Positions 4,462-31,075 of a DNA stretch of 33,843 nt are shown piece by piece. Made by a program: the position numbers and the translations under genes. Numbering within the stretch: the first letter of the stretch is position 1; each line of letters opens with the position of its first letter. This stretch comes from Dehalococcoidales bacterium. GTDB taxonomy: Bacteria; Chloroflexota; Dehalococcoidia; Dehalococcoidales; RBG-16-60-22. The notes below the pieces were generated by a model, which saw nothing but the letters and a program-made list of their open reading frames with translations, ran no database searches and was not told where the DNA came from. The stretch lies in assembly GCA_016926115.1 (NCBI GenBank), contig JAFGPF010000012.1:1-33843 (forward strand). Reading direction: 5' to 3'.

Positions 4462-4992
4462 ATGAAGAAACTTACGGTAATACCCGAGCAGTGTTCCGAC
4501 TGCCGTATATGCGAGCTGGTATGCGCAATAAAGCACTTCGGTGTAAATAACCCGAAGAAATCGGCGATAAGAATAATCAATGCCTATCCGCATCCGGTAA
4601 TGAGGATGCCGGTGGTATGCAGCCAGTGCCGCGTGCCATCCTGCGCGCAGGTATGTCCTACCGACGCCCTGCGATGGGTCGACGGAATCGTACAGCTGGA
4701 CGAAGAGCTATGTATTTCCTGTTTTAAATGCGCGGAGGCATGCCCCTTCGGGGCTATCTACGCCCATGAGGACTGCAACCTGCCCATCAAGTGTGATATG
4801 TGTGGCGGCGACCCCGAATGCGTAAAGTACTGCCCGCTGGGGGCTTTAAGATTGATACCGGAGCACGCTCTCGGCGAGACCAAGCGAATCGGCAACATCC
4901 TCAGCTATACGCAGATGCGCGAGATTGAGTTCTACGAGAAGGGTGAAAAGAAGACCATCCGCTACGCCGAGATAGGCAAGGAAGAGCTATGA
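4462..4992 (+). CDS. Four-cluster ferredoxin subunit of an AOR complex
   Basis: A 176-residue iron-sulfur protein of the HycB/DmsB type with four cysteine groups: CSDCRICELVC near residue 11, CSQCRVPSCAQVCP near 53, CISCFKCAEACP near 82 and CDMCGGDPECVKYCP near 108. These would hold up to four [4Fe-4S] clusters. Such subunits carry electrons between the tungsten enzyme and a soluble acceptor or membrane partner. Its last codons overlap the AOR start by 4 bp (ATGA), so the two are translationally coupled and most likely form one complex. A strong GAGGAGGG site precedes the ATG. A similar ferredoxin accompanies the second AOR, there on its 3' side. Confidence 0.9.
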   Translation: MKKLTVIPEQCSDCRICELVCAIKHFGVNNPKKSAIRIINAYPHPVMRMPVVCSQCRVPSCAQVCPTDALRWVDGIVQLDEELCISCFKCAEACPFGAIYAHEDCNLPIKCDMCGGDPECVKYCPLGALRLIPEHALGETKRIGNILSYTQMREIEFYEKGEKKTIRYAEIGKEEL

Positions 4993-6818
4993 GCATAAAA
5001 AGCGGATACTTTAAAAAACACCTCGCTGTAGACCTCACGAAGGGCAGCGCCGAGTACCTGGATTTATCGGATGCCTTCCTAGAAAAGTACGTCGGCGGGC
5101 GCGGCTTCGGCGCCAAGCTGACATGGGACAAACTCAAGAGACATAATTTCAAGATAGACCCTCTGGGCGACGAAAACCTGATAGCCATCGCCCCCGGACC
5201 GCTGACCGGTGTTTACCTGCCTTCCTCGGGCAAGAACTCGTTCATCGGCATATCCCCTGCTACCGGAATCTACGGCGATTCGTCAATCGGCGGAGGGTTC
5301 GGCGTGGAACTAAGGCAAACGGGAATAGACGTGCTGTCCGTCACCGGAAAAGCACTGGAGTTGTCTATTCTTCTCATAGATAACCACGACGCCCGTATAA
5401 TCCCCATGCCTGAACTCAAGGGCAAGACCTCGCTGGAAGCCGAGGGAATTATCCGTGAAACGCTGGACGTCCAGACGGCGCACATCGCCACCATCGGTCC
5501 CGCCGGTGAAAACCTGGTGAAGTTCGCCTGCGTCAATACGGACTGGGGAAGGAATGCCGGCAGGACGGGATTCGGGGCTATCATGGGCGCCAAGAACCTC
5601 AAGGCGATTATCGTGCGGGGACACGAAGACCTGCCCGTTCACGATATCAAGGGATTAGTGGAGGAGTCCAACCGGGCATACGGCTACCTGAAAGAACATA
5701 AATACTTTAAGCTCTGGCAGCAGGAAGGTCTCATGAACGTCATCGAGTATGCCAACGACAAGGGAATCCTACCGACCTATAATTTCAAGGACAGCGTCTT
5801 CGCCCGGCATGACCAGATAAACGGAGCGACCATGCTGGACGGCTTCAAGATAGGCGACAATGCCTGTTTCGCCTGCGCCATGTGCTGCGGAAATATCTGC
5901 CTGGTCAAGAACGGTAAATACGCCGGCACGGTGGTCGAGGGACCTGAATATGAGTCCTGCGCCATGCTCGGTTCCAACGTCGGCATCGACGACTTCGCGG
6001 CGATTCTTTCAGCTAACCAACTCTGCGATGAACTGGGGTTGGATACTATTTCCACGGGCAACCTCATTGGCGCGGTCATCGAGGGCTACGAGAAAGGCAT
6101 CATCTCCCTTGCCGACCTCGGCGGGCACGAGATTACCTGGGGAGAAGATGATGCCATTATCAACCTGATACGCATGATAGCCGCCCGGGAAGGCATCGGC
6201 GATATTATTGCGGACGGACCGCGCCGCGTCATCGAGCAATGGCCCGAGATGGATAAACTCATCCTGGAAGTAAAGGGACTGGAACAGTCTGCCTACGACA
6301 GCCGTGCCGGCAGTTCCATGGCGCTGGCTTATGCCACCTCGGACATCGGCGCCCACCACACGCGCGCCTGGACAATCGCCCGGGAGATGGAAGAGGGACA
6401 GGGCTGGTCCGACGACGAACGGGTAAAAACGGTGATATACCACCAGACGCTGCGCCCCCTGTTCGATATGCTGGGCGTCTGCCGCCTGCCCTGGATTGAA
6501 CTAGGCCTCAACGAAAGGCACTACGAGAATTTTTATAAGTACGTTACCGGCAATGAAAAGACGCTGGAAGAACTACTGGCTCTTTCTAACGATATCTATG
6601 ACATGACCCGCCTGATAAACGTGAAGCTGGGCGTCAGACGCAAAGACGACTCCCTCCCCTACAAGGTACATGCCAGCCCGCCGCTGACCGGACCCAACGC
6701 GGGCAAGGTGGTGGACAAGGACGCCTTCCAGAACCTGCTGTCGCTCTACTATAAGGAACGCGGCTGGAACGAGGAAGGCAAGCCGCCGGAAGGCACCGAG
6801 AAGAAGTTCGAGGACTGA
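4989..6818 (+). CDS. aor: Aldehyde ferredoxin oxidoreductase family protein (AOR 1, tungstopterin)
   Basis: The 609-residue product has the usual AOR length. The N-terminal AFOR domain (about residues 5-210) includes the YVGGRGFGAKLTWD, IAPGPLTG and GGGFGVELRQ segments that cradle the bis-pterin cofactor. The [4Fe-4S] site is C293-x2-C296-x3-C300 plus a fourth cysteine near 497 in GVCRLPW, matching the family pattern. AORs oxidise aldehydes to carboxylates, or the reverse, using ferredoxin and a tungsten bis-pyranopterin; relatives act on aromatic CoA-thioesters (BamB), so the substrate is open. It is coupled to the preceding ferredoxin by a 4-bp overlap. No residue of the metal site looks lost. 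No obvious terminator follows. Confidence 0.92.
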   Translation: MSIKSGYFKKHLAVDLTKGSAEYLDLSDAFLEKYVGGRGFGAKLTWDKLKRHNFKIDPLGDENLIAIAPGPLTGVYLPSSGKNSFIGISPATGIYGDSSIGGGFGVELRQTGIDVLSVTGKALELSILLIDNHDARIIPMPELKGKTSLEAEGIIRETLDVQTAHIATIGPAGENLVKFACVNTDWGRNAGRTGFGAIMGAKNLKAIIVRGHEDLPVHDIKGLVEESNRAYGYLKEHKYFKLWQQEGLMNVIEYANDKGILPTYNFKDSVFARHDQINGATMLDGFKIGDNACFACAMCCGNICLVKNGKYAGTVVEGPEYESCAMLGSNVGIDDFAAILSANQLCDELGLDTISTGNLIGAVIEGYEKGIISLADLGGHEITWGEDDAIINLIRMIAAREGIGDIIADGPRRVIEQWPEMDKLILEVKGLEQSAYDSRAGSSMALAYATSDIGAHHTRAWTIAREMEEGQGWSDDERVKTVIYHQTLRPLFDMLGVCRLPWIELGLNERHYENFYKYVTGNEKTLEELLALSNDIYDMTRLINVKLGVRRKDDSLPYKVHASPPLTGPNAGKVVDKDAFQNLLSLYYKERGWNEEGKPPEGTEKKFED

Positions 6819-7435: not shown

Positions 7436-7947
7436 CTAACGACCTCAGACGCCGCAGAGAAGCCCGCATCACCGGTTCCGCTTTCGCCATCGCCTGGTGC
7501 ATCATCCTGATAATCTTCTTTAACTTTTTCCACGAATACGCGGCTTATTACAGCGCCGATACCACGGGCGGCGTGGTCACCTGGACGAAGCAGTCCTTCT
7601 TTACCGGCGAAATCGGCTTGTGGCTGCCGATTCTTACCACCACCCTGGTAATTTCAATAATCGGGCACATCGTCCTCATCGTCGTGGACAGGCACGTCCT
7701 GCGGCGGGCGATTCACATCATCATCGACGGATTCAGCCTGGCGACGGTCGTCACTCTGGTTACCGTCTTCCCGTTCGACTTCGATATTATCCCCAGCGCG
7801 GTAGCCGCCGCTGGTACGCACATCGGGGTGACGGTCGTGCTGATATGTATCGCGGTGGGCATCGGGATAAGCCTGCTGGTAAGGATTATCAAACTGCTGG
7901 TGGACCTGGCGAAGCTGGCGGTGACGACACCCCCGGACTCCGACTAA
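7432..7947 (+). CDS. Four-helix membrane protein without a visible start codon
   Basis: The reading frame is open from 7417, but the first ATG, GTG or TTG is the GTG at 7573. The upstream part is clearly coding: residues L-A-N-D-L-R-R-R-R-E-A-R, then a hydrophobic segment FAIAWCIILIIFFNFFHEYA (about 7483-7542). Starting at 7573 would remove this first transmembrane helix. Three more hydrophobic segments follow (LWLPILTTTLVISIIG, IHIIIDGFSLATVVTLVTVF and THIGVTVVLICIAVGIGISL). No family is recognised. Either it is translated as a -1 frameshift extension of the DUF4870-like gene via the A9 run, or it is a separate gene whose ATG has been lost or misread (ATGTAAA at 7419 needs only one base removed to give ATG-AAA-AAA-AAA-CTA). 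Its stop overlaps the convergent msrA stop by 4 bp. Confidence 0.6.
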   Translation, partial: LANDLRRRREARITGSAFAIAWCIILIIFFNFFHEYAAYYSADTTGGVVTWTKQSFFTGEIGLWLPILTTTLVISIIGHIVLIVVDRHVLRRAIHIIIDGFSLATVVTLVTVFPFDFDIIPSAVAAAGTHIGVTVVLICIAVGIGISLLVRIIKLLVDLAKLAVTTPPDSD

Positions 7948-8852
7948 TCAGCGATTTGAGGTACCGGGCAGACCGGCGTAAGACCCTTTTCGGCGACGTC
8001 CGCTAATTTCGCCTGGCTCTTTTCAGACAGTCCGAGGCTGCCCAGCTCTTCCCGGAAAGCCTCCTCCGTGCCGTAACCGGCGGCGTATCCATTGACACGC
8101 GTCACGGCGGAAGACTTAACAAAATCGTTAATGTCCGGGTATATCGCCCTGTACTCGTCGTAAATGTCACGAACATGCTCGAGATAGTACTTCTGGTGGT
8201 ACTCCTCGGCGGGGTAAAAATCGGCGGCGGGGACTATATCCGTATATATCCTGTGTCCCGTTGCCGCTTCCAGGCTGCTGCGTTTCTCCAGAGCCAATTG
8301 CTTCTGCGCTTCGTCGTGATAGAAGATATTGGACATGTACTGACGCGACCCCGAAGGATAAACCGGATTATGCTGCTGCCAGAACACATCCAGCAGTTCT
8401 GCATACGATATTACCGAGGGGTCGTATTCTATTTGTATCGTCTCGGAATGGTCGCCGAGTTTATAGTATGTCGGATTTGCGGTGGTGCCCCCGGCGTACC
8501 CGACAACAGTACTGACCACTCCCCTGATACTCCCGAACCGGGAGTCCGGACCCCAGAATCAGCCAAGGGAAAAGGTTGCCGTCTCCGTTACAGCAGGCCT
8601 GTTGGCATCGATGAGAGGGATATTGCTGTTCTTTACTGTATCTTCTTTCATATCTTCTTTCACTCCACCGGATTCATCCGCCGGTTCTACGACTGCCGGG
8701 GTATCTCCTTCAACCTGCCCTTTAGCACCCGTATCGGCGGTCTTTTCTTCCCCCTCCACGTTTACCTCCGCCTCCTGGCACGAGCCCACCAGAGGTATCA
8801 GAGACATGCTCAGGATTAACACTATTCCCATGATTATAATCTTCGACTTCAT
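7944..8852 (-). CDS. msrA: Lipoprotein peptide-methionine (S)-S-oxide reductase with selenocysteine at the catalytic position
   Basis: Read through one UGA (8559-8561) this is a single 302-residue protein. Residues 1-25 are a signal sequence (MKSKIIIMGIVLILSM, then LVGSC with C25 as likely lipidated cysteine). Residues 26-90 are an acidic linker and residues 91-302 are MsrA. The family motif at the active site reads T-F-S-L-G-[UGA]-F-W-G-P-D-S-R-F-G, so the UGA stands exactly where MsrA has its catalytic Cys. Downstream come GYAGG, the IFYHDEAQ segment and FYPAEEYHQKYY, all typical. The only cysteine of the MsrA part is C295 near the end, a candidate resolving residue. MsrA reduces methionine-S-sulfoxide in proteins; the lipoprotein signal puts it outside the membrane. 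A SECIS-like hairpin follows the UGA. It is the third gene after FmdB and ferredoxin, only 3 bp from the latter. The alternative, two broken ORFs, needs a nonsense mutation precisely at the catalytic codon. Confidence 0.85.
8529..8545 (-). promoter_or_regulatory. Bacterial SECIS-like hairpin in msrA
   Basis: On the minus strand, 13 nt after the UGA, ACTCCC pairs with GGGAGT around loop GGTTC (a seventh C-G pair is possible, leaving GTT). The first loop base is G, 20 nt after the UGA. Published bacterial SECIS rules ask for a short apical loop with G in its first two positions about 16-37 nt from UGA, so it fits. No U-run follows, so it is not a terminator. Confidence 0.75.
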
Positions 8853-8855
8853 TTT

Positions 8856-9074
8856 TCAAACACTGAACATCTTAATGGCATTCAGAGAACAGGCGCGTAC
8901 GCAGTCCCCGCAGGCACGGCAGGCGGAAGGCTCCGGCTCGGGCGTGGTATAAGGGTATTCCTGCTTCAGCAGTTTCGAGGGGCACGCCAGTGCCGCGGCG
9001 CAGACACCGTCTTCGCACTCTTCCGGACGGCACATATGATAGTCCAGCAAAGCCAGCTTTCTCGCCATGTGCAT
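8856..9074 (-). CDS. Small 4Fe-4S ferredoxin-like protein
   Basis: A 72-residue protein with two cysteine groups. The first, near residues 15-30 (MCRPEECEDGVCAAALACP), resembles the N-terminal ferredoxin part of ABCE1/RLI proteins. The second, near 53-63 (CRACGDCVRACSLNAI), is a normal C-x2-C-x2-C-x3-C motif. It could carry two [4Fe-4S] clusters and act as a cytoplasmic electron carrier. It sits between the FmdB gene and msrA, with only 3 bp to msrA, so it belongs to their operon. ATG 9074 is preferred over ATG 9068 because GGGTGA lies 7 bp before it. Whether it feeds electrons to the lipoprotein MsrA is unknown; the two would be on opposite sides of the membrane. Confidence 0.75.
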   Translation of the reverse strand: MHMARKLALLDYHMCRPEECEDGVCAAALACPSKLLKQEYPYTTPEPEPSACRACGDCVRACSLNAIKMFSV

Positions 9075-9113: not shown

Positions 9114-9312
9114 AACAACCCGAGCCTCAGGTAGGAAAGTTCAGGTTGCCCGATTTCCCCGAGGGATTCCGGCTGAAAACCGCCGAGATAGTCCTGCGGG
9201 GGCCCTTCTCACCGCACTTCGGGCACTCCACGTTATCGTCACTATCCGTTATGGCGCGGAAAGACTCGAATCCTTCTCCGCATTTCCGGCACCGGTATTC
9301 GTATATAGGCAT
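9112..9312 (-). CDS. FmdB-family zinc-ribbon protein, candidate selenoprotein with C-terminal U-G-S-G-C
   Basis: The N-terminus MPIYEYRCRKCGEGFE is the FmdB/CxxC_CxxC_SSSS signature, with a zinc ribbon formed by C8, C11, C30 and C33. ATG 9312 follows AGGAGGAGAATTAT and is clearly the start; an upstream ATG at 9348 is not needed. The conventional product ends at UGA 9127-9129 after 61 residues (NLNFPT). Four sense codons G-S-G-C follow in frame, then a second UGA at 9112-9114. FmdB homologues often end in a Gly/Ser/Cys tail, so decoding the first UGA as Sec gives the expected kind of tail, U62-G-S-G-C66. A hairpin with the same geometry as the msrA SECIS lies 13 nt after the UGA. FmdB proteins are called putative regulatory proteins, with no firm role. 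The selenoprotein reading is inference, strengthened by msrA being in the same operon. Confidence 0.65.
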
Positions 9313-9391
9313 ATAATTCTCCTCCTGGTGGTCTCTATCGTTGTACATAGTCTAACCCGTTGTGACCTGTTTCGTATGTGATATAAGTCGC

Positions 9392-28929: not shown

Positions 28930-30030
28930 ATGAACGTTCTCAAGGGACTGGGCACTGCTATCCTGAGTCTTCTACTTTTCCTCTGTCTCAGCGTTTTCAG
29001 CATCGCTTTCCTCCTCCAGAGCACCGTGCTTAATCCCGACTTCGTCGTTAAACAGGTAGACAGAATCGACGTTTCGGAAATCGCCGACGAGTTTGCCGGG
29101 GACCTGTTCTCCGAAGACCTGCCCGGCGAAGCGCAGTTCCTGCGGGCAGCCGTATTCGATATCATCGATGACCAGGAACCCTGGCTTAAAGAGCAGTTCC
29201 GCTACGTTATTAACACGTTTTACGATTACCTACTAAGCGAGACCGATACACTGGAAATCACCATCGACCTGGCGGCGGTCAGAGAAGGTTTAAAGGAGAG
29301 TATCTGGGAATCACTTACCGAACAGGCGGCTGACTGGCTTCCCGACGTTGTAACGCACGAGCTTAGCCCGTACGTTGAGGAGCACTATGACGAGTACGTT
29401 CAGTTGATTCCGGACGAATACGTCCCGCCGGGGATTGCCGACCTGCCTGAAGAACAGCTTATGGGATTCCTCGACCTGTACTTACAGGACATCGGGCAGG
29501 AAATTGAGCAGCAGGACCTGGTGCCGGAAATAACCGGACTACTGGAAGTACTGCTCAAACCTTATTATGACGACTATGCCGATGAGTTCCTGGAGATAGT
29601 GCCTTCCGAGATAGAATGGAACGAGGACAACATTCCCGCCGACGTCATGGACCAGCTGCTTACCGCCAGGGAATACATCGGCTACTTCCAGGCCGGCTTC
29701 TACTGGCTCATCTTTATAATGGTGGTGCTGGCCGGCTTGATTTTCCTGGTAAACTGGAACGTCAGGAATGCCTGCCGCGCGCTGGGAATAGACCTGATTG
29801 TCTTCGGGGCACTGGACCTTATCGGAGTTATCATTGCCAGAGTTAACAGCCCGCTGGGCATGATATCGGACGTGCCTGCGACGTTTGAGTCGTGGCTGAC
29901 TGCCCTCTATAACGACGTCCTCTCTATAATGATGTGGTTCAGCATCGGCGTACTGATTATCGGGATAGCCTTACTCGTGGTATCAATCGTCGTCAAACCC
30001 AAGTCCGCGGAGCCAGCTTACGATGGCTAA
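28930..30030 (+). CDS. Membrane protein with large extracytoplasmic domain, unknown function
   Basis: A 366-residue protein. One N-terminal hydrophobic segment (LGTAILSLLLFLCLSVFSIA, about 6-25) is followed by some 220 mostly acidic residues (about 30-255), and then three hydrophobic segments: YWLIFIMVVLAGLIFLVNW, LGIDLIVFGALDLIGVIIA and MWFSIGVLIIGIALLVVSIV. The acidic domain is probably outside the cell and contains many Asp/Glu and Pro but no Cys pair. I recognise no named family. Its end overlaps the next lipoprotein gene by 8 bp, so the two are likely made together. Confidence 0.75.
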   Translation: MNVLKGLGTAILSLLLFLCLSVFSIAFLLQSTVLNPDFVVKQVDRIDVSEIADEFAGDLFSEDLPGEAQFLRAAVFDIIDDQEPWLKEQFRYVINTFYDYLLSETDTLEITIDLAAVREGLKESIWESLTEQAADWLPDVVTHELSPYVEEHYDEYVQLIPDEYVPPGIADLPEEQLMGFLDLYLQDIGQEIEQQDLVPEITGLLEVLLKPYYDDYADEFLEIVPSEIEWNEDNIPADVMDQLLTAREYIGYFQAGFYWLIFIMVVLAGLIFLVNWNVRNACRALGIDLIVFGALDLIGVIIARVNSPLGMISDVPATFESWLTALYNDVLSIMMWFSIGVLIIGIALLVVSIVVKPKSAEPAYDG

Positions 30031-30400
30031 ACGACTCGTTATCGTCGCGATCCTCCTGCTGTTTCTACTGGCTTCCGTATGCTCCTGCCTGGGATCGGGT
30101 CCGGCGCCCGTGGCGCAGCTGGCGATACTCCGGCAGGAACTGACTAAAGACGAAACAGGCGCGACGGTGGTCTATGTGACCGTGAAGAATAACAGCCAGA
30201 ACGTGGCCGAGCTTGCCGAGGTCAGTGTTGATTTCTACGACGCCAGCAAGAACTACGTAGACAGCGCCACGGACAGCGTCATCAACCTGAGACCCAATGA
30301 GACTTGGGACTTTACGTTCAGGTGTGAGGGGGAGCGCTGCAGCGATGTCACCAGCGCCGAAGTTAGAACGACCTCCGGGACAATCTCAGGGGGATTGTGA
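30023..30400 (+). CDS. FxLYD-domain lipoprotein
   Basis: The 125-residue product has an N-terminal signal (RLVIVAILLLFLLASVCSC) whose cysteine at about position 22 may be lipidated, although the lipobox is not ideal. The rest matches the FxLYD/DUF3426-type beta sandwich: VTVKNNSQNVAELAEVSVDF, then NLRPNETWDFTF. Such domains occur in surface proteins of unknown function. Two cysteines, C96 and C101, could form a disulfide. It is coupled to the upstream membrane protein and overlaps the convergent gene's end by 15 bp. Confidence 0.75.
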   Translation: MAKRLVIVAILLLFLLASVCSCLGSGPAPVAQLAILRQELTKDETGATVVYVTVKNNSQNVAELAEVSVDFYDASKNYVDSATDSVINLRPNETWDFTFRCEGERCSDVTSAEVRTTSGTISGGL

Positions 30401-31075
30401 AGACTTGCTCTTTAGCCACCACCCTACCCCACCGCATACCATAGCCCCCACCGCCGTGAACAGCCCGCAGAATACGGCGGCATCGGCGAAGAACTCCTGC
30501 GGAAACAGCCGCAGCATGTAGCCCTCCGCGTACCAGAACTCGTTGGTGAAAAAGACCAGGTGAAATCTATACCATAAATCGCCAAAACCCCAGAACACGT
30601 CCAGTAGCACCACCGCCACTATCAACACCAGCGACAGACCTCCCCCGTATAGCAACCCCCGCGCCAGCCTCCTCCTGTCTTTAAGCCAGAACACATTGAC
30701 CAAAACGTATGCCAGCAGATACGCAAATGTACCTATATACAGCCCGTAGTCCAGCCACATCAGATCTTTAACATCTTTGAAGTGGCTGGTTTCCTCGTCG
30801 GTAAACAGCCTGACCGGCTGCCCGCCGCTGACCACCGTAAGCTCTATATACTCCCCGCCGCAGTTGAAATAGTCGACCAGGCTATCGTAAGCGCGCTCTA
30901 TCTCCGGTTTTTCCAGCGGCAAACCGTAACTCGATAGCCTCTGGCTTACGTTATATTTATCATAGCCGAAATCACACAGCCAGAAGCTCAGGCTGTTCGC
31001 CATTATCCCGATTGCCGCCGTTAGCAGCATCACGGGCATGCAAATTATAAAAAGCCATTGCGCCGCTGTTTTCAT
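30386..31075 (-). CDS. DUF1461/TIGR01906-like integral membrane protein
   Basis: A 229-residue protein with an N-terminal helix, an extracytoplasmic loop, and further helices. The loop contains L-F-T-D-E-E-x-S-H-F-K-D-V, the diagnostic F-x-x-x-E-x-x-H-x-x-D-V block of TIGR01906/DUF1461. Its later helices are GLYIGTFAYLLAYVLVNVFW, LYGGGLSLVLIVAVVLLDVF and FCGLFTAVGAMVCGGVGWW. Family function is unknown. The end overlaps the convergent FxLYD gene by 15 bp, with no terminator between. Confidence 0.8.
   Translation of the reverse strand: MKTAAQWLFIICMPVMLLTAAIGIMANSLSFWLCDFGYDKYNVSQRLSSYGLPLEKPEIERAYDSLVDYFNCGGEYIELTVVSGGQPVRLFTDEETSHFKDVKDLMWLDYGLYIGTFAYLLAYVLVNVFWLKDRRRLARGLLYGGGLSLVLIVAVVLLDVFWGFGDLWYRFHLVFFTNEFWYAEGYMLRLFPQEFFADAAVFCGLFTAVGAMVCGGVGWWLKSKSSQSP

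Follow-up and report, generated by a model that had tools for sequence, protein, structure and literature searches.

An apparently split gene on the minus strand of the analysed stretch of DNA (33,843 nt, hereafter the window) raises a simple question. Two adjoining open reading frames (ORFs) resemble the two parts of one MsrA, the methionine-S-sulfoxide reductase that repairs oxidised methionine, and a TGA codon stands where the catalytic residue should be. Is this a broken gene, a pair of genes, or a single gene in which UGA is decoded as selenocysteine (Sec)? We conclude that the window gene very probably encodes a Sec-MsrA of the Clostridium (Alkaliphilus) oremlandii type, with UGA decoded as Sec98 through a SECIS hairpin. 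The relevant features, all on the minus strand, are as follows.

9127-9348 (-): FmdB-family zinc-ribbon protein gene (profile matches), first of the presumed fmdB-fdx-msrA operon
8856-9074 (-): small ferredoxin-like gene upstream of msrA, with its stop 3 nt before the msrA ATG
7944-8852 (-): very probable Sec-MsrA gene, 302 codons, single in-frame TGA read as Sec98, TAG stop
8778-8852 (-): predicted lipoprotein signal peptide with lipobox LVGS-Cys25 (Cys25 at 8780-8778), from a pattern search
8559-8561 (-): UGA codon 98, very probably the catalytic Sec of GUFWG, aligned with catalytic residue 16 of C. oremlandii MsrA
8529-8545 (-): SECIS-type hairpin ACUCCCG-GUU-CGGGAGU, apical GGUUC, loop 19-20 nt after UGA
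8175-8585 (-): MsrA catalytic domain, approximately residues 90-226 (profile, PDB sequence, AlphaFold and Foldseek matches)
7989-8174 (-): C-terminal helical domain, approximately residues 227-288, as in C. oremlandii MsrA (AlphaFold model and Foldseek match to 4lwj)
7968-7970 (-): Cys295 in the tail, candidate resolving Cys (alignment column)

One reading frame and its relation to known MsrAs

The ORFs at 8559-8852 (97 aa) and 7944-8519 share a common frame, whose sole break is the TGA at 8561-8559. The first ends with TATFSLG and FWGPDSRFG resumes after the TGA, which places this codon at the catalytic Cys of the MsrA motif GCFWG. The initial annotation had read the two ORFs as one gene split at exactly this codon; its coordinates, frame and motif were all confirmed, and the assignment to the catalytic Cys agrees with the read-through frame, both profile matches and the alignment to C. 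oremlandii MsrA. Translating the TGA as Cys gives a product that matches Pfam PMSR at residues 91-229 (E 1.4e-42) and scores above the cut-off of NCBIfam TIGR00401 (msrA). The top PDB chains, by sequence as well as by fold, are those of C. oremlandii MsrA (CoMsrA; entries titled U16C and U16S), to which residues 90-288 of the window protein align free of gaps. The AlphaFold model (mean pLDDT 83.6) matches 4lwj in Foldseek over 202 columns with a TM-score of 0.90 by target length, and its five helices at 228-288 correspond to the C-terminal helical domain of the 1-Cys CoMsrA type. MsrA homology, in sequence and fold, extends across the catalytic domain, with the in-frame UGA at the catalytic codon of GxFWG.

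CoMsrA is natively selenocysteine-containing, according to the available part of PMC4479559. Its active-site residues Tyr47, Glu55, Gln89, Tyr90, His137 and Tyr140 (available part of PMC4333827) align with Y129, E137, Q171, Y172, H219 and Y222 of the window protein, and all six are retained past the TGA. CoMsrA (P0034; PDB 4lwj, 4lwk, 4lwl, 4lwm, 4u66, 4w8c) and the window protein, which are 54% identical over 66% of the query, are thus alike in the catalytic Sec of GUFWG, the active-site residues and the C-terminal helical domain. They differ in that CoMsrA has 209 aa and, in the portion of PMC4333827 available, is described as having no Cys, whereas the window protein carries 97 residues ahead of the Sec codon, including a predicted lipobox, and the tail Cys295. 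The 3-Cys MsrAs of Escherichia coli and bovine origin have the same catalytic fold and motif, but carry Cys in place of Sec, along with two resolving Cys (PMC4479559, available part).

The enzyme type is already known. Sec-MsrA is listed as a bacterial selenoprotein with the motif GUFWG/H (PMC13188914, in part), and the other bacterial Sec-MsrA genes in the accessible parts of PMC2398784 and PMC13188914 likewise have Sec at the catalytic codon. In C. oremlandii, the Sec form has 20 times the activity of the Cys form, as reported in the available text of PMC4333827 and PMC4479559. What the window gene adds is a set of variant features, namely the predicted lipoprotein-type signal and Cys295.

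The hairpin downstream of the UGA codon

In the bacterial SECIS model, as given in the Fig. 2 legend of PMC13188914 (a source available in part), the apical loop has 3-9 nt and the upper stem 4-16 bp, a G lies within the first two loop positions, the UGA-to-loop distance is 16-37 nt and the energy is -7.5 kcal/mol or lower. The initial annotation held that a hairpin obeying such rules follows the UGA, and it does: the stem has 7 bp, the loop has 3 nt (5 nt with the closing G-C pair open) and reads GUU or GGUUC, the distance from the UGA is 20 nt, and the energy of the hairpin alone is -9.8 kcal/mol.

Taken alone, this hairpin is modest evidence, because it was equalled in 2.0% of 5000 synonymous recodings and because, counting every frame on either strand, 13 of the window's 984 TGA triplets have an equally stable hairpin. 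In three of these 13, the msrA one included, the loop lies 18-20 nt from the TGA. The thermodynamic z-score for a 63-nt stretch was unremarkable (-0.29) and did not single out the SECIS; the rule-based hairpin search with comparison to Cys genes did. Fifteen window TGAs are flanked by at least 60 open codons on both sides, and among the three checked the hairpin was present only at the msrA TGA. As an internal control, no rule-fitting hairpin was found after the TGA stop of the ferredoxin-like gene.

The SECIS evidence for the window becomes strong because the hairpin is conserved across the family. We compared 66 Sec genes (52 scan loci, 13 further loci from the class described below, and the window) with 16 Cys genes of the subfamily, treating 24 distant Cys MsrAs separately. 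Loci L081 and L090 (the latter being the same gene as L010) were left out beforehand, L036, L078, L097 and L102 were left out for having no usable motif or flank, and L112-L119 lie outside the comparison. The best rule-fitting hairpin had its loop 18-20 nt after the UGA in 63 of 66 Sec genes, and a hairpin at the same place occurred in none of the 16 subfamily Cys genes and none of the 24 other Cys MsrAs. At the seven stem pairs, 82% of cells were paired in Sec genes vs 41% in Cys genes (22-58% for stems slid as controls), and changes on both sides of the stem numbered 40; the 2000 shuffles averaged 15.6 and peaked at 25. Among single sites, conservation is clearest at the third base of the Gly codon that occupies positions 28-30 (with the U of UGA numbered 1). 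This base, free at the protein level, is G in 63/66 Sec genes vs 1/16 Cys genes (p ~1e-12); of the 413 other Gly codons that the Sec genes have in the same 120 nt, 76 are GGG. Several results count against a uniform element. Three of the 66 Sec genes have their best hairpin elsewhere or none; the energy is weaker than -5 kcal/mol in nine and weaker than -7.5 kcal/mol in 24; the outermost stem pair is formed in 34. Rule-fitting hairpins at other distances are also present in 13 of the 16 subfamily Cys genes, 10 of them at -5 kcal/mol or lower. An in-gene hairpin that is conserved in Sec genes only nevertheless provides evidence that is independent of any one genome.

Spread of Sec-MsrA and of the Sec machinery

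A scan with one genome per species gave at least 591 matching stretches, at least 575 of them relatives, and we retained the best 80 loci. The catalytic codon in these 80 is TGA in 53 and TGT or TGC in 27. By record title, the TGA loci belong to Nitrospirae, Deltaproteobacteria and Desulfobacteraceae, Planctomycetota, Chloroflexi, Bacillota and Clostridia, Actinobacteria, Acidobacteriota, Synergistaceae, Spirochaetales and others. A marine metagenome table from 2008 has, as we read the row, nine Sec-MsrA sequences (PMC2398784, available in part), to be set against the 53 loci found here. The selenoenzyme with one well-studied bacterial example is thereby extended to many bacterial phyla; it looks commoner than that example implies, and the remark in the initial annotation that it is known in a few anaerobes and algae understates its spread. 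The Cys loci among the best 80 have a different make-up, 21 of 27 being titled haloarchaea, Bacilli, Patescibacteria or Thaumarchaeota, and 12 of the 27 Cys genomes have distant MsrAs from outside the subfamily. Since they come mostly from lineages of few groups, the Cys genomes are not independent. At least five Sec/Cys changes are needed on the tree of relatives; its backbone is weak (38 of 82 inner branches open), and we therefore claim no direction for these changes. L091 (genome G442, where no selB passes the cut-off) is a Cys form close to Sec-MsrAs of the same class; its active-site motif is GCFWC, which contains a CxxC, and Sec may have been replaced there by Cys with another Cys next to it. 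The scan of viral contigs gave a single match, a distant Cys homologue, and among the 10 plasmid matches listed of 1083, all below 46% identity, nine are annotated as MsrA and one is unannotated.

Ordinary gene calling was expected from the outset to lose the active site, and public protein sets often do so. Among the 82 close homologues aligned (of 120 matches listed), 45 have a gap in the Sec column, 30 have C and seven have W, so that the residue is missing or Trp in 52. The Trp entries (P0004, P0005, P0008, P0009, P0025, P0030 and P0071) read GWFWG, as if TGA had been translated as Trp, and a C in this column can also be Sec written as Cys, for example in the C. oremlandii entry P0034. The window's own entry, P0002, is a 191-aa piece without the catalytic residue.

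The Sec machinery was followed in relatives; within the 33,843-nt window, Rfam at gathering thresholds gave tRNA-Val only and no tRNA-Sec. The 53 TGA loci correspond to 51 genomes examined (two loci share one genome and one locus is without a genome). A selB gene (TIGR00475 over cut-off) was present in 44 of the 51 (18/19 plus 26/32) and in 2 of 27 Cys genomes (0/5 plus 2/22). tRNA-Sec (RF01852) was over its cut-off in 43/51 TGA and 5/27 Cys genomes, and at 60 bits or more in 38/51 vs 2/27. Scores near the cut-off are not specific, because 5 of 14 control genomes pass too; the matches in three Cys genomes without selB are barely above it. Where selB is missing from a TGA genome (seven cases), tRNA-Sec scores 68-78 bits in four and at best 47.6 bits in the remaining three (0.9, 1.2 and 3.3 Mb). 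This co-occurrence of selB and tRNA-Sec, together with the recurrent TGA and a hairpin confined to Sec genes, supports Sec decoding as initially proposed.

Three other readings of the locus deserve consideration. In the first, an ordinary Cys-MsrA has suffered a nonsense mutation or its sequence contains an error, so that the gene is broken and TGA is a true stop; it takes one base to turn TGC or TGT into TGA, and the window is a single contig, without reads to check. We regard such an accident as very improbable, given that TGA recurs at the same codon in 53 of the best 80 loci, that the hairpin and the Gly wobble base are kept in Sec genes but not in Cys genes, and that the residues on either side of the TGA codon are conserved. 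Mechanical ORF finding yields instead two genes, the first for a short lipoprotein of unknown function, the second for the 191-aa MsrA started from an internal GTG, which is the form deposited as P0002. That form has neither the catalytic residue nor the first strand and helix of the modelled fold, and the TATFSLG at the end of the upstream part is the active-site lead-in of MsrA relatives, so that a pair of genes has, in our view, only a slight chance of being correct.

The seven GWFWG homologues in the protein set would suit a third reading, in which UGA is read as Trp under code 4 or by a suppressor. Among the 32 window ORFs taken as genes, however, nine end in TGA, which argues against it; the ferredoxin-like gene just upstream stops at a same-frame TGA that has no hairpin, and the chemistry is impossible for Trp. 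We consider this reading extremely improbable. The window gene is accordingly treated below as a Sec-MsrA gene.

The class of the L010 genome (G003), which the window probably shares, is probably Dehalococcoidia. The window aldehyde:ferredoxin oxidoreductase (AFOR, 4989-6818) is 71-80% identical to its matches in 15 of 393 genomes of this class. Sec-MsrA occurs in at least 15 of the 393, a lower bound derived from the best 30 loci, and the codon is read as TGA in 14 of them; G408, counted among the 15, has msrA in two pieces, one with a TGA between residues 65 and 140. In these 15 genomes taken as Sec-MsrA carriers, we found selB in 13, selA in 13, selD in 12 and tRNA-Sec in 14, with all four components in nine and selB alone in G419. 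The 12 other AFOR genomes of the class, one of which (G455) has a C-terminal MsrA piece, contain selB in eight, selA in eight, selD in seven and tRNA-Sec in six. Another 25 genomes of the class served as Cys-MsrA controls, some assigned solely for want of a stop within the match; 13 of them have selB. Thus, sel genes are common in the class and not specific to Sec-MsrA carriers. The selD gene, found in 19 genomes of the class, has one in-frame TGA in 17 of them, the other two matches being without the N-terminal part, and SelD is probably itself a selenoprotein in these relatives. We take Dehalogenimonas alkenigignens to be a member of Dehalococcoidia. It has tRNA-Sec, Sec synthesis genes and a putative Sec-containing SelD and formate dehydrogenase, according to the available part of PMC4918011.

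Predicted export signal, tail cysteine and gene neighbourhood

The 97-residue N-terminal part opens with a hydrophobic stretch followed by LVGSC at residues 21-25, found by pattern search alone with what we take to be a lipobox pattern; the window Sec-MsrA is therefore probably an exported lipoprotein. Of the 65 other Sec genes 18 passed the same pattern test, as did a single one of the 16 Cys genes. Besides the catalytic residue, the protein has two Cys, Cys25 of the lipobox and Cys295 in the tail, and because of these we file it under Sec-MsrA and not under the 1-Cys CoMsrA type. The Cys295 column, in a tail that AlphaFold models with low confidence, holds Cys in 55 of 83 aligned rows (window included) and is the only column after Sec with at least five Cys among those rows. 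In the wider family, we defined tail Cys as lying +190 to +215 and loop Cys as lying +64 to +67 from Sec. Among 63 full-length Sec proteins, 14 have the tail Cys only, 18 the loop Cys only, none both and 31 neither (Fisher p 0.006, with kinship ignored). We hypothesize that the two may be alternative resolving Cys.

SelB-mediated Sec insertion is an established mechanism in bacteria. In the window transcript, SelB carrying Sec-tRNA-Sec would bind the hairpin, nucleotides 14-30 after the UGA, and Sec would be put in at residue 98 without termination. Given the lipoprotein-type signal, the product would probably be active on the outer face of the membrane. The sulfenic-acid chemistry of the MsrA family is likewise established, and by analogy Sec98 would attack methionine-S-sulfoxide, free methionine and be left as selenenic acid. 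In this sub-branch, Cys295 of the tail may then resolve Sec98 as a Se-S bond, which a thioredoxin-like reductant could open. CoMsrA, described as without Cys, is recycled by glutaredoxin and not by thioredoxin, and dimerisation via its catalytic residues is possible during catalysis, as stated in the available parts of PMC4333827 and PMC4479559.

More broadly, we offer a tentative proposal, to which we give somewhat less than even chances: helical-domain Sec-MsrAs would not all be 1-Cys enzymes, a resolving Cys having evolved either in the tail (Cys295) or in a loop about 66 residues past Sec, never in both, and the window branch would be a membrane-anchored, extracytoplasmic Sec-MsrA recyclable by thioredoxin-like proteins as opposed to glutaredoxin. 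A light literature search, covering few subscription papers, turned up neither a report of a resolving Cys in the tail or loop of Sec-MsrA nor one of a Sec-MsrA exported as a lipoprotein. The tail or loop Cys offers a testable idea for the recycling of Sec-MsrAs, and the predicted export suggests selenium-based methionine repair at the surface of anaerobes.

The ferredoxin-like gene is likely in the same operon as msrA. It has weak, sub-cut-off NCBIfam matches to 4Fe-4S proteins, RLI being the best, and no Pfam match; its terminal TGA lies 99 codons before the Sec codon in the same frame. In the synteny search, it matched one of 111 loci (L088), where a protein 55% identical to it is encoded directly upstream of a Sec-msrA, and the FmdB query matched one of 111, weakly (L005). 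At L088 (746-1414), a nitrous oxide-stimulated promoter family protein precedes the ferredoxin-like gene, hinting at a nitrosative or oxidative stress context.

Elsewhere in the window, positions 63-1424 encode a repetitive protein of 453 aa, rich in Ala, Glu and Lys, whose C-terminal end is hydrophobic and which matches no Pfam family. A TGA at 30388 (minus strand), after a Lit-like ORF, was dropped as a Sec candidate, there being no hairpin. Within 28930-31075, the minus strand encodes a Lit-like membrane protein (PF07314), and next to it the plus strand has an uncharacterised ORF of 366 aa.
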